Positions 21,419 to 26,282 of a DNA stretch of 64,000 bases are shown piece by piece. Source of the stretch: Kaistia soli DSM 19436 (GTDB taxonomy: Bacteria; Pseudomonadota; Alphaproteobacteria; Rhizobiales; Kaistiaceae); the NCBI RefSeq assembly GCF_900129325.1, contig NZ_FQUP01000002.1, positions 264,668 to 328,667 on the forward strand, in the 5' to 3' direction. The position numbers were made by a program, and so were the translations under genes. The notes below the pieces were generated by a model, which was not told the DNA's origin, did no database searches, and worked only from the letters and a program-made list of their open reading frames with translations. Position 1 is the first letter of the stretch; the number at the start of each line of letters is the position of its first letter.

Positions 21419-21532
21419 CCGCCGCCTCTGCCGGATGCCCGGCAAGCGATAGCGCGGAATTTCCGCTCGCCATGCGCGGTCCTTCCGCGTTATTCTTGTC
21501 CCGTCTTTCAGCCTCGAACAAGGGAGGGCCGT

Positions 21533-21601
21533 GTGATCGCCATCAGGCACCACCTGACTTACGGCCCCTTCTCCGCCCTGCAGATGCGTTTGCAGGGCTG
21601 A
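21533..21601 (+). CDS. Putative 22-residue leader peptide of the ABC-F gene
   Basis: A GTG at 21533 with AGGGAGG five bases upstream opens a 23-codon frame ending in TGA at 21599-21601. The peptide starts MIAIRHHLTYGPF and ends LQMRLQG. Its last third is encoded by an eight-base-pair hairpin, and the structural ABC-F gene begins 101 bases further on. Upstream frames with good ribosome sites before ABC-F resistance genes are known as attenuation peptides in other phyla. That this one is translated is inference. Confidence 0.45.
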   Translation: MIAIRHHLTYGPFSALQMRLQG

Positions 21602-21619
21602 TCAGGCAGCGGACTTACG
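21543..21619 (+). promoter_or_regulatory. Attenuator-like alternative stem-loops before the ABC-F gene
   Basis: CCTGA (21553-21557) can pair with TCAGG at 21543-21547 or with TCAGG at 21602-21606. Between them lies a perfect stem GCCCTGCA (21575-21582)/TGCAGGGC (21591-21598). The words ATCAGGCA and GACTTACG occur twice, 56-59 bases apart, giving an imperfect direct repeat. Mutually exclusive pairings overlapping a short leader frame are what translation or transcription attenuation needs. There is no clear terminator T-run, so control of translation is likelier. Confidence 0.4.
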
Positions 21620-21702
21620 CGTCCCTCTTCCCGGTCGGCTCATCCCCGAACACCGCGCTCGCACATTCCGTCACGCGCTGCGCTGGACGAGAGACGATCC
21701 CA

Positions 21703-23220
21703 ATGTCACTGATCACCGCCCGCTTACTCGGCATGGCGCTCGGCGCGCCGCTTTTCTCCAATCTCGACCTCGTCGTTCAGAAAGGTGACCGCATCGGTCT
21801 GGTCGCCGCGAATGGCCGGGGGAAGTCGACGCTCATGGGCTGCCTCGCCGGGCTCGTCGACCCGACGGAAGGCGCGATCCAGAACGCCCGCGGCGTCCGC
21901 ATCGCCTTGATGCAGCAGGATCTTGGTGCCGAGGACCTCGCGCATTCCGTCCGCGCCGCGCTGACCGATTCCCTTCCCGCCGAAACCCGCGACTGGGATG
22001 CGTGGCGCGTCGACGTCGCGCTCGATGCGCTCGACTTCCCGGCGGACCTGCGGGATCGCCCGCTGGCGACGCTGAGCGGCGGCTGGCAACGCATCGCGCT
22101 GCTGGCCCGGGCGGCGCTCGACGAACCGGATGTCCTGCTGCTCGACGAGCCGACCAATCATCTCGATTTGGAGCGCATCGGCATCGTCGAACGCTGGATC
22201 GCCGCGCTGCCGAAGGAAACTGCCGTCGTCGTCGCGAGCCATGACCGCGCTTTCCTCGACGCCGTCACGTGGCGGACACTCTTCCTCCGCACAACCGGCT
22301 CGGCTGATTTCGCGCTGCCCTATTCCCGCGCCCGCGACAGCCTCGACGTGGAGGACCAAGCGGCGGCGCGACGCCACGAGATGGATCTCCGCGAGGCGGC
22401 ACAGCTGCGTCGCCAGGCCGCAAAGCTGAACAATATCGGCGTCAATTCGGGCTCCGACCTGTTGACCGTGAAGACACGGCAGCTGAAGGCCCGGGCTGAA
22501 CGGATCGAGACCGCGGCGAAACCCGCCTTTCGTGAAGAGTCCGCCGGCCGCATCCGCCTCGCCGAGCGTGGCGCGACCGCGCGGACTTTGCTCGCCATCG
22601 ACACTCTCACAGTCACCACGCCGGACGGACGCAAGCTCTTCACGACCGGCAGGCTGTGGGTCCAGCCCGGCGACCGCGTGATGCTGCTCGGCGCGAATGG
22701 CAGCGGGAAGTCACAGCTGATGGACCGCCTCGCCCATGCCCTGCGCGGCGCGGATGTCAGTGGCATCAGAGCTGGCCCGTCGGTCATAACGGGCCATGTT
22801 GACCAGGCCCTCAGCCACATCGACGGCGGGGAGACGCTGCAATCCGCCATCGGCAGCCGTTTCCCGCTCGGCGAGCAGCGGATCCGCACGCTCTTGGCCG
22901 GAGCCGGCTTTGCGGTGGAGCGGCTGGCGCGGCCCGTCGCGACGCTGTCGGGCGGTCAGCGGGCGAGGCTCGCCATGCTCATCCTCCGCCTGCAGCAACC
23001 GAACTTCTATCTGCTCGACGAACCGACCAACCATCTCGATATCGAAGGGCAGGAGGCGCTCGAAGGCGAACTGACCGGCGGCGAGGCGGCCGCCATCATC
23101 GTCTCGCATGACCGCCGCTTCGTCGAGACGGTCGGCAACCGCTTCTGGCGCATCCAGCGCGGCCGCCTCATCGAGGAGGACGGGCCGGCCGAATTCTTCG
23201 CAGAAGCGATGCGCGGCTAG
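21703..23220 (+). CDS. ABC-F family ATPase, possible ribosome-protection protein
   Basis: A 505-residue protein with two ATPase domains and no membrane segment. Domain 1 has AANGRGKST (36-44), LSGGW and LLLDEPTNHLDLE; domain 2 has GANGSGKS, LSGGQRARLAML and LLDEPTNHLDIE. A linker of about 80 charged residues between the domains (around residues 210-300) could reach the ribosomal P-site tRNA. The first signature (LSGGW) replaces the usual Gln. A housekeeping role (Uup/EttA-like) is possible, but the single-gene setting with a leader frame favours antibiotic-linked ribosome rescue. Confidence 0.85.
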   Translation: MSLITARLLGMALGAPLFSNLDLVVQKGDRIGLVAANGRGKSTLMGCLAGLVDPTEGAIQNARGVRIALMQQDLGAEDLAHSVRAALTDSLPAETRDWDAWRVDVALDALDFPADLRDRPLATLSGGWQRIALLARAALDEPDVLLLDEPTNHLDLERIGIVERWIAALPKETAVVVASHDRAFLDAVTWRTLFLRTTGSADFALPYSRARDSLDVEDQAAARRHEMDLREAAQLRRQAAKLNNIGVNSGSDLLTVKTRQLKARAERIETAAKPAFREESAGRIRLAERGATARTLLAIDTLTVTTPDGRKLFTTGRLWVQPGDRVMLLGANGSGKSQLMDRLAHALRGADVSGIRAGPSVITGHVDQALSHIDGGETLQSAIGSRFPLGEQRIRTLLAGAGFAVERLARPVATLSGGQRARLAMLILRLQQPNFYLLDEPTNHLDIEGQEALEGELTGGEAAAIIVSHDRRFVETVGNRFWRIQRGRLIEEDGPAEFFAEAMRG

Positions 23221-23238: not shown

Positions 23239-24498
23239 CTAAACCGTCGCGGCGAGATGCGGGCTCGTAAAGCCGAGCCGCGCCAACCCGCGGCGGACCA
23301 TCGGGTCCGCCATCACGAGGTGCCACAAGAGACCGCTGCGATGGTTCTCGATCATCGCGATGATCGGACCCTGGTCGATGGCGAGATGCGTCTTCGCATA
23401 CCAGCCGACCGTCTCGTTGAAGGCGTCGACAAAGCCATAGTCACGCCAGATGCGATCACCGAGATCCTCATAGAAGTGCCTGAGTGCCGGCATCACGAGA
23501 TCGGGCGCATAGGGAAGGCTCGAAATCGCGGCGGTGGGCGCGATGACGCCGAGATCGTTGTCCGGGGCATGGGCCGAATAGCCCTCATGGCTGTCGCTCG
23601 CCGTCAGTCCCCAGCAATCCGGTCCATAACCGACGAAATTCTTCGGATTCCGGACGCAATAGGCCTGGTTGATCCTGATATGCGCAACGTTCTGCGCGAA
23701 ATAATCGGCATAGGGATCCTTGAGCCCGCGCGGATCGAGGCCGAGGAAAGAGTAATGGGCGAAGAACAGCGGCCCGCCGCCATCCGGCCCGAGCGGAAGC
23801 AGGATATCCTCGTGCCGACGTCCGTTGAGGAAGGTCCGGCTCTGGGTGAAACCGTTATGATAGACCGCCGGATCGATGGCATTGCGCTCGGCGCCGGCCG
23901 CGAGCACGAGCGCGATCAAGCACTCGTTCCAGCCAAGGATCTCGTGGTTGAGGCCGAAGCCATGATTAGGGCTCCAGTGCCAGTAATAGGCCTCGCGGCC
24001 ATCGCGCGTGAACCAGTCCCATTCGACCGCACTGATTAGCCCGTCGATGCGGCCGCGCAGCCAGGGCTCCTTGCCCGTATCGCGTGCAAAATACTGCCGC
24101 GCCGCAATCAGTCCCTGAAACAGCAGCGCCGTCTCGACGATGTCAGCGCCGTCGTCCTTGCGGCCGAAGCGGATCGCTCGGCCCTCAGGCGTCACGAAAT
24201 GCGGCAGCGCCCCATGGAAGCTGTCGCAGCGCTCCAGGAAACGCAGCATCAGATGCAGCCGCTCGACGGCCGCCTCGCGCGTGATCCAGCCACGCTCGGC
24301 CGCGACGATGATCGCCATCGCGCCCATGCCCGAACCGCCTGTCACCAGCCAACCGTCATTGCCGCCGAAGCGATCGCGGGCCAGGCCGCTGCCCGGATCG
24401 GCGAAGTCCCAGAAATAGCGGAAAGTCTGGCGCTGGACCGTTTCCAGCAGCGCCTCGTCGGAGAGCCGGGGTTCCGCGGCCACGCGCAGGCTGGTCAT
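23239..24498 (-). CDS. GH144-type glucanase / COG5368 glycoamylase-domain protein
   Basis: A 419-residue protein of the family that holds endo-beta-1,2-glucanases (GH144). Typical sequences are QRQTFRYFWDFADPGSGLARDR near the start, GWLVTGGSGMGAMAIIVAAERGWI, YYWHWSPNHGFGLNHEILGWNECLIALVLA, FFAHYSFLGLDPRG, CWGLTASD and GVIAPTAAISSLPYAPD. No signal peptide is visible, unlike many secreted relatives, so it may act in the cytoplasm. It overlaps the upstream ABC-like gene by four bases (ATGA at 24495-24498), implying a joint role, perhaps in uptake and breakdown of beta-1,2-glucan. Confidence 0.83.
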   Translation of the reverse strand: MTSLRVAAEPRLSDEALLETVQRQTFRYFWDFADPGSGLARDRFGGNDGWLVTGGSGMGAMAIIVAAERGWITREAAVERLHLMLRFLERCDSFHGALPHFVTPEGRAIRFGRKDDGADIVETALLFQGLIAARQYFARDTGKEPWLRGRIDGLISAVEWDWFTRDGREAYYWHWSPNHGFGLNHEILGWNECLIALVLAAGAERNAIDPAVYHNGFTQSRTFLNGRRHEDILLPLGPDGGGPLFFAHYSFLGLDPRGLKDPYADYFAQNVAHIRINQAYCVRNPKNFVGYGPDCWGLTASDSHEGYSAHAPDNDLGVIAPTAAISSLPYAPDLVMPALRHFYEDLGDRIWRDYGFVDAFNETVGWYAKTHLAIDQGPIIAMIENHRSGLLWHLVMADPMVRRGLARLGFTSPHLAATV

Positions 24499-26282
24499 GC
24501 CGTCTCGCCTTCCTTTGCGCCGAGGTCCGGTTCAGGGTCAGGCTCGGCACCGACCAGATTGACCGTCCGGCCATAAAAATCCGTCGCGGATGGGCGTCCA
24601 GCCACCGTGACCAGCCCGGCCGCTTTCAATTCGCCGTTGATGATCGACAGAAACACTGCCCGCTGACGCTCGTCCAGCGTGTCGATGGACTGCTCCGTGA
24701 AGATCCAGTCGGGCTTCAGCAGCAGCAGCCTGGCGAAGGTGAGCCGCTCCTCATCATCGAAGGAAAGCTCACGCGCCCAGCGCGCGCGGCGATCCAGCGA
24801 GCCGACAAGACGCGGCAGTTCCACGCGTTTCAGCGCTTCGGTCAACGCTTCTTCGGTGAAGTCTGAGGGTGACGCCGGATAGGTGATAGCCGAGCGCAGC
24901 GTTCCGTCGGGAATATAGGGCCGCTCCGGCAGGAACATCGTCCTGGCGCCAGGCGGCAGCGCGATGCGTCCGGAGCCGAACGGCCAGAGGCCTGCCAGCG
25001 CCGAGAACAGCGCGCCGCGCCCCGCACCTGTCTGATCGACAATCTGCAGCCGCTCGCCGGGCACGATATCGACACTGTCCGGATCGAGCGCCGCGGCGCC
25101 GCCTGTCCAGGTGATGCGGACGTGATCGAGCACGACATGGTCGCCCGCGGCCTCATAGCTCAGATGCTCGCTGCTCTGGCCGCGCGCCTCGAGCGAAGTC
25201 AGCGCTTCGCGGAAGGTCATCACGCGCGAGAGTGTCGCCCGCCAGTCTGCGATCGCGCTGAAATTATCGACGAACCATCGCAGGGAGCCCTGCACCTGGT
25301 TGAAGGCGCCGACCACCATCATGAGCTGGCCGAAGGTCAGCTGGCCACCAAAATAGCCAGGCGCCGCAATGACGATTGGCGCGACGATGCCGACCCAGCC
25401 ATAGCCCGAGGTTACCCATGTCAGCCGTGCGATGGCATTGACCATCTGCCGCATGACGCCGAGCACGCGCTCGAGCTCTTCGCCGAGGCGCTTCTTCTCG
25501 TCGGCCTCGCCGGCATTCAGAACGATGCCGTTGGCGTTCTCGCTGACCTGCACCATGGCGAAGCGGAGATCGGCCTCGCGGGCATAACGCTCGACGCCGA
25601 TACCGATCAACGGGCGGCCGACCAGCCAGCTGAGCAGGGAGCCTGTGGCGGCAAAGATCAGCGCGCACCAAACCATGTAGCCGGGGATCGCAAGCGTTGT
25701 GCCGTCGAACGACAGGCGGATGCCACTCGACAGCACCCAGAGGACGCCGATGAACGAGACGAGAAGCAGCGAGGACTGGAACAGCCCGATGCCCAGGCCG
25801 GCGGACAGTTCCGCGAGATGGCGCGCATCCTCATGCACGCGCTGGTCGGGATTGACGCCGATCTCGCCGGAATTGCGCAGCATGACGAGCCGCCGAGGCG
25901 CCAGCCATTGCTCGATGAGATCGCGCGTCAGCCATTTGCGCGACTGCAGCTTGATCATCTGATCGAGCCAGGTCTGAGCGACGTTGAGCGCCAGCAAAAC
26001 GCCCGCGAGCCCGCCGAAAACCATCAGATAATAGAGAAACGAGCCGACATTCTTCTGTTCGATCGCATCGTAGAACGGCTTGTTCCACATATTCAGCGCG
26101 ACCTGCATGGCGTTGGTCGCAAGAATGACGGTGATGATGCCGACGGAAAGCAGCACGAAGGTGCTGCGGCCGGAGGAGCGCCACAGCGCGAGGATGAAAT
26201 CGGAAAACTGACGGGCGAGCTCTGCCGTATCGCTGAGGGGCCGGGCCGCAGGTTCCTGCTTTTCGTCGATCTTTTCCGTCAT
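24495..26282 (-). CDS. BacA/YddA-type ABC transporter with degenerate nucleotide-binding domain
   Basis: About 595 residues: an N-terminal membrane domain of the SbmA/BacA/ABCD type ([42 protein letters not shown]-like [20 protein letters not shown]), then a full-length ATPase-like domain. All nucleotide motifs are altered: Walker A is [10 protein letters not shown] (416-425; Lys to Arg, Ser/Thr to Gly), the Q-loop is LPERPY, the signature is LSFDDEE (506-512), Walker B/catalytic Glu is WIFTEQ (526-531), and the H-loop histidine is Gly (about 562). The frame is intact. It may work like the proton-driven SbmA/BacA. Start uncertain: ATG 26282 or ATG 26357 (GAGG five bases upstream). Confidence 0.85.

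Follow-up and report, generated by a model that had tools for sequence, protein, structure and literature searches.

The window analysed here, a 64,000-nt stretch of Kaistia soli DSM 19436 (NZ_FQUP01000002.1, positions 264,668 to 328,667), carried on its minus strand a gene for an ABC-derived transporter with a transmembrane domain (TMD) and a nucleotide-binding domain (NBD), and a gene for a GH144-type glucanase homologue downstream of it. The features were as follows:

24495..26282, minus strand: dead-NBD ExsE-like ABC-derived transporter, 595 aa, ATG start; orthologues in 13 other genomes of the host genus, one of them a fragment
25197..26165, minus strand: TMD, residues 40-362, type IV ABC exporter / SbmA_BacA fold (Pfam PF06472/PF05992)
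25920..25922, minus strand: Asp121, acidic in 13/13 host-genus proteins
25818..25835, minus strand: His150-Glu151 and His155, start of TM3; Glu151 aligns with the SbmA gate residue E193
24543..25139, minus strand: full-length NBD fold, residues 382-580, catalytically dead
25014..25037, minus strand: Walker A position DQTGAGRG, Lys to Arg422 and Ser/Thr to Gly423 (alignment; poorly conserved in the host genus)
24903..24932, minus strand: Q-loop position, 10 residues, Gln to Glu453 in PERPY
24747..24770, minus strand: signature position ELSFDDEE instead of xLSGGEQQ (alignment)
24690..24707, minus strand: Walker B position WIFTEQ, Asp to Glu530 and catalytic Glu to Gln531; Glu-Gln invariant in 13/13 host-genus proteins
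24594..24611, minus strand: H-loop position VTVAGR, His to Gly562 (alignment)
23239..24498, minus strand: GH144-type beta-1,2-glucanase homologue, 419 aa (Pfam PF10091, 248 bits)

A glycerol kinase gene was located upstream in divergent orientation and no separate ATPase gene was found in the operon. A two-cassette ABC-F-like protein with intact motifs was located two genes away (21472-23220) and its function is apparently unrelated.

The Pfam search for the transporter produced hits with ABC_membrane_2 (102 bits, 4.5e-29) and SbmA_BacA (94 bits, 1.5e-26) over residues 43-360, while ABC_tran scored only 19.1 bits against a cut-off of 25. Secondary structure, pLDDT and fold matches showed that an NBD fold is joined to a type IV exporter TMD, which keeps both ICL (coupling-helix) insertions in the alignment to SbmA. 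The AlphaFold2 model, built on a 20-row alignment, gave the NBD a complete alternating strand-helix order with pLDDT mostly 83-94. The best structural match was Rv1819c (6tqe, the closest solved full-length structure) followed by ABCD3 and ABCD1. The 595-aa ORF and the modelled fold thus bear out an earlier sequence-only reading in which the ATPase-like domain was full length and in frame. The motif positions were read from MAFFT alignments and showed that the residues expected of an ATPase were replaced at Walker A Lys, Q-loop Gln, LSGGQ Gly, Walker B Asp and Glu and H-loop His in all 13 full-length proteins of the host genus; each substitution that had been listed for these motifs was present in the translation and in the alignment.

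The host-genus sample consisted of the window genome and 13 others, 12 with a full-length copy and one with a fragment. The full-length orthologues showed 68-93% identity to the window protein and 12/12 were dead at the same six positions; the fragment was dead in the same way at the Q-loop, signature and Walker B. Sister-species orthologues with intact motifs, the case that the sequence-only reading had set against itself, were not found among these 12 copies. The Nei-Gojobori estimates with bootstrap limits for five close pairs within the genus gave NBD dN/dS values of 0.084, 0.069, 0.166, 0.206 and 0.210 (bootstrap upper limits 0.128 to 0.325), and the conservation with dN/dS below 1 for which that reading had proposed to look was therefore present. 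The dead NBD is kept under purifying selection in the host genus, and values of 0.07-0.21 argue against a decaying pseudogene. A pseudogene, recent decay and a sequencing or assembly error were ruled out by the 12 other dead orthologues and the dN/dS far below 1, and chance by the same orthologues together with the selection on the NBD. The 13 genomes with a full-length dead copy all contained a separate gene for an intact BclA/YddA-like paralogue with 31-33% identity; the dN/dS of this paralogue, computed as a yardstick, varied too widely between pairs to lean on. The same reading gave intact motifs in these 13 paralogues and in the 27 class-level relatives whose NBD is complete, which ruled out an alignment artefact. 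Overall, the dead motifs were confirmed as real and as more than one odd gene.

The TMD was the most constrained part of the protein, with 198 of 323 columns invariant in the host genus and a dN/dS of 0.024-0.161 in the close pairs, tighter than that of the NBD. Within the NBD, the conserved stretches were FSALAGL (7/7), the Q-loop (8/10) and a 12-residue stretch (10/12), whereas only 2/11 P-loop positions were invariant; the H-loop and parts of the signature also varied. The low P-loop count against those of the Q-loop and the 12-residue stretch suggests that the nucleotide face was released while the docking and core faces were kept. The Walker A Lys position was Arg or His, with a positive charge in 13/13 proteins, which together with the kept fold would suit an NBD whose remodelled pocket binds ATP, polyphosphate or a different nucleotide. 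Such non-canonical use is quite unlikely, as the variation in the P-loop, the H-loop and parts of the signature is unlike that of a selected pocket and the Walker B Asp-Glu reads Glu-Gln.

The family tree was calculated from TMD columns alone, with the NBD columns unused, by a quick search with SH-aLRT as the sole support value. The window protein was placed with ExsE inside an ExsE-like clade of 67 rows (SH-aLRT 100), apart from BclA/YddA and SbmA/BacA. The degenerate members formed one nested group of 63 rows (SH-aLRT 96), and the intact members Bradyrhizobium-type L070, Pelagibius L131, L064 and L176 branched outside it. The designation BacA/YddA-type in the sequence-only reading was right as to the SbmA_BacA homology of the TMD and has to give way to the separate ExsE-like clade as to placement. 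Membership in BclA/YddA likewise failed since the motifs were not intact and the protein did not group with BclA. No relatives were found in viral contigs and a viral origin was rejected.

Taxonomic frequencies were taken from samples of genomes, 397 for the order. Strong matches at E<=1e-110 were found in 73 of the 397 genomes, host genus included, mostly with 42-54% identity outside the genus. Scans of named Hyphomicrobiales genomes, covering records other than the window genome's own and near ones, showed ExsE-like members in Mesorhizobium, Bosea, Microvirga, Methylocystis, Chelatococcus, Phyllobacterium and Ensifer. Two close relatives (L130 and L133, 48-49%) were located on contigs binned as Verrucomicrobiota, by horizontal transfer or mis-binning. 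Motif counts for 148 deduplicated members, mostly Hyphomicrobiales, showed that Walker A Lys was kept in 117, Q-loop Gln in 30, signature Gly in 13, Walker B Asp in 129, catalytic Glu in 96 and H-loop His in 13, with signature Gly and H-loop His together in only 10. All six residues were lost in the 13 host-genus proteins and in one Aestuariivirga tandem copy, whose nearest sampled kin, a Taklimakanibacter tandem copy, fell elsewhere in the tree. Outside the order, class-level relatives were intact in 27/27 cases where the NBD was complete; two other class-level loci held a TMD-only gene and a broken gene. A TMD-only relative in a 390-aa frame from another lineage of the class (L250, 38% identity) is possibly a further independent NBD loss.

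Nearly all members of the ExsE-like clade retained an in-frame, full-length NBD, and the fold-core residues W433, G436, G438, P443, P524, W502, R518 and Y456 were at least 94% kept across 138 degenerate members. In one relative the NBD was split from the TMD and lay about 0.8 kb after the end of the first frame (L079:2933-5873), and in another it was in a different frame overlapping that of the TMD (L078:3074-5052). In another genome of the order, the relative L077:2953-4122 had 57% identity over 320 TMD residues and still carried both coupling-helix insertions; its gene ended right after the TMD and no NBD remnant was found in the sequence after it. This is apparently a recent natural NBD deletion. 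The stages of decay therefore ran from intact basal lineages through loss of the signature and H-loop (S. meliloti ExsE) and loss of all motifs (host genus) to deletion of the domain (L077). The NBD evolved faster than the TMD, with dN/dS about 1.3-3 times higher in the five pairs and an entropy of 1.95 vs 1.32 bits in the degenerate clade (1.51 vs 1.48 in intact relatives). Together with L077, these values would agree with ordinary relaxed decay of a redundant NBD toward deletion, with no retained function; against the dN/dS far below 1 in every tested pair and the in-frame, full-length domain of nearly the whole clade, this explanation is very unlikely.

Among known systems, BclA, YddA and Rv1819c (the BacA of M. 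tuberculosis) had the same domain order as the window protein, with Rv1819c as the top match in both sequence and structure, but unlike it they have an intact ATPase; BclA transport is reported to require ATP hydrolysis (Smith et al. 2025, PMC12003926). SbmA/BacA (SLiPT) share the TMD homology (PF05992) and transport without ATP. Unlike the window protein, they have no NBD, have both coupling-helix insertions deleted and carry the full six-glutamate ladder, and they form a separate clade on a long branch. In the passages of a 2026 study consulted here (PMC13316013), the proton-driven SbmA family was proposed to come from a YddA-like ABC protein losing its NBD, and those passages name no intermediates with a retained dead domain. 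As SbmA/BacA lack the insertions and form a distant clade of their own, the ExsE-like series, judged from sequence comparison, parallels this proposed history and is independent of it. The intermediate state suggested by the sequence-only reading survives as a whole, conserved dead domain next to a domain-less lineage, parallel to SbmA/BacA and not ancestral to them; a direct ancestor of BacA was rejected since BacA fell outside the ExsE-like clade, on a long branch of its own. MsbA without its NBD (MsbA-MD) has been described as active in drug transport, yet it did not replace MsbA in growth (PMC8660845).

Pdr5, TM287/288 and TAP resemble the window protein in having changed Walker A, Walker B, signature and H-loop motifs, but they keep one canonical site whereas a homodimer of the window protein would have none. 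Pdr5 NBS1 is altered in all four motifs, and in the degenerate exporters under review one site stays canonical (PMC7756269). A dead half-transporter could in the same manner heterodimerise with another ABC protein, for example the intact BclA-like paralogue, as both proteins are present in every sampled host-genus genome except the fragmented one. Tandem ExsE-like pairs followed by GH144 were also found in two genomes of other families (Taklimakanibacter L134, 3787-7737; Aestuariivirga L171, 3952-7686), in which the upstream copy lacks at least five of the six motif residues; these unequally degraded pairs are possibly obligate heterodimers or subfunctionalised pairs and would lend such a pairing some support. 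However, Walker A, Walker B, H-loop and signature are all dead in the window protein, and with both halves damaged no complete composite ATP site would form in a homodimer or in any heterodimer. The paralogue is moreover unlinked (contig C4 vs C5) and only 32% identical, and no linked partner was seen. Heterodimerisation is accordingly an unlikely explanation here.

The identity of ExsE was traced through gene order. The S. medicae member was located beside queE-queD-queC and near exo genes, with the S. meliloti 1021 pSymB homologue at the matching place. We take the queC/D/E genes of this cluster to be exsB/exsC/exsD and hence the S. medicae and S. meliloti member to be ExsE; the pSymB record gives the homologue no gene name. 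S. meliloti ExsE was in the same clade as the window protein with 45% identity over the full length, and it too is dead at the signature (LGDDEQ) and has lost the Q-loop Gln and the H-loop His, both to Arg. Unlike the window protein, it still has Lys-Thr in Walker A and Asp-Glu in Walker B, and its gene is not paired with GH144. In the parts of Smith et al. 2025 used here (PMC12003926), ExsE and a "Bradyrhizobium homologous clade" make up clade A, and the ExsE of Phyllobacterium zundukense gave intermediate complementation of the gentamicin sensitivity phenotype of an S. meliloti delta-bacA mutant and little or no complementation for NCR247; these parts hold no discussion of the ExsE NBD motifs. 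All of the 20 sampled Phyllobacterium genomes, among which P. zundukense was not singled out, carried an ExsE with GIDRT at Walker A, LSDDEQ at the signature and Arg in both the Q-loop and the H-loop. If the P. zundukense protein is the sampled orthologue, as class and clade imply, it is probably active with a dead NBD as read from the indirect gentamicin assay, in a relative about 45% identical to the window protein. The complementation and the 20/20 dead domains together suggest that dead-NBD ExsE-like proteins probably still transport. Long-chain fatty acid transport is a literature annotation for ExsE-like clade A, and no assay was found for it.

The ATG of the GH144 gene overlaps the stop codon of the transporter gene (ATGA). 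The GH144 homologue matched the solved structures 4gl3 (E=8e-158) and the endo-beta-1,2-glucanase 5gzh (E=2e-134), and its Glu192 (WNECL) aligned with Glu211 (NECL), the general acid of CpSGL (PMC12102758). No signal peptide was evident by eye at its N-terminus or in the GH144 proteins inspected next to other family members. Among the 148 members, 51 had a GH144 neighbour and 97 had none in the fetched stretch, some stretches being short; in 46 of the deduplicated members the GH144 gene followed that of the transporter on the same strand, after a median gap of 50 bp. Many dead-NBD members, Sinorhizobium ExsE included, had no GH144 neighbour. The basal intact-NBD members L131 and L151 had GH144 upstream on the same strand. 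The translational coupling to a GH144 enzyme without a signal peptide suggests a beta-1,2-linked cargo; from the gene linkage, the cargo of the window transporter is probably a glycan, and it may differ between ExsE-like lineages given the 97 members without GH144. The link between ExsE-like proteins and GH144 may predate the death of the NBD. This coupled and widely conserved neighbour is the partner that the dead domain might bind in the sequence-only reading, which also named gating of transport as a possible role.

The coupled partner without a signal peptide would also be expected if the protein were no longer a transporter but a membrane scaffold, sensor or anchor whose NBD recruits or regulates GH144, and SUR1 is a precedent for a non-transporting ABC protein. 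We consider this improbable since the strong constraint on the TMD is expected where translocation is selected, many dead-NBD members have no GH144 neighbour to recruit and P. zundukense ExsE alters gentamicin sensitivity (PMC12003926).

The titratable residues of the TMD were compared with the glutamate ladder of SbmA. In the alignment, E193 and E276 (SbmA numbering) were kept, E378 was Asp346 and E203, E269 and E287 were absent; removing single ladder residues severely impairs SbmA (PMC13316013), and the absence of these three counts against a gradient-driven carrier. In the numbering of the window protein, D121, H150, H155 and E269 were common among dead-clade members, whereas intact relatives had them seldom or never. 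Outside the host genus, the Asp121 position was acidic in 88% of the dead-clade members, against 0% of the basal and 2% of the other relatives with an intact NBD. His150 lies beside and His155 one turn after the equivalent of E193, a residue for which a role in switching SbmA to its inward state has been proposed. The gain of D121, H150 and H155 and the death of the NBD coincide on one branch, a single independent pair that allows no statistical test, so that these residues are only suggestive of proton coupling.

Overall, we give a probability of about 0.5 to the reading of the window protein as an ExsE-like, gradient-driven homodimeric carrier with the dead NBD as a structural cap and an oligosaccharide cargo for the coupled GH144 enzyme. 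The protein would be a homodimeric, ABC-derived transporter of the inner membrane whose NBD would no longer bind or hydrolyse ATP in the usual way and would be kept as a folded cap docked on the coupling helices of the TMD. Transport would be driven by a gradient, most likely of protons as in SbmA/BacA, or by substrate pull through downstream hydrolysis, and the cargo would probably be a beta-1,2-linked glucan or oligosaccharide passed to the cytoplasmic GH144 beta-1,2-glucanase. More tentatively, the whole family may have passed from an ATP-driven ABC protein to a gradient carrier, with every stage represented and independently of SbmA/BacA, the dead ATPase being taken over as a cap that the carrier needs for its structure or regulation, and the host-genus carrier feeding a cytoplasmic beta-1,2-glucanase.

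The ExsE-like clade offers living intermediates for each step from a working motor to a dead one to none, with which it can be tested whether an ABC membrane domain changes its energy source before or after the death of its ATPase. Phyllobacterium ExsE in S. meliloti, partly working in a bacA mutant, is a member tractable in the laboratory. Finally, many genes annotated as "ABC transporter ATP-binding protein/permease" in rhizobia and their relatives are unlikely to encode ATPases.
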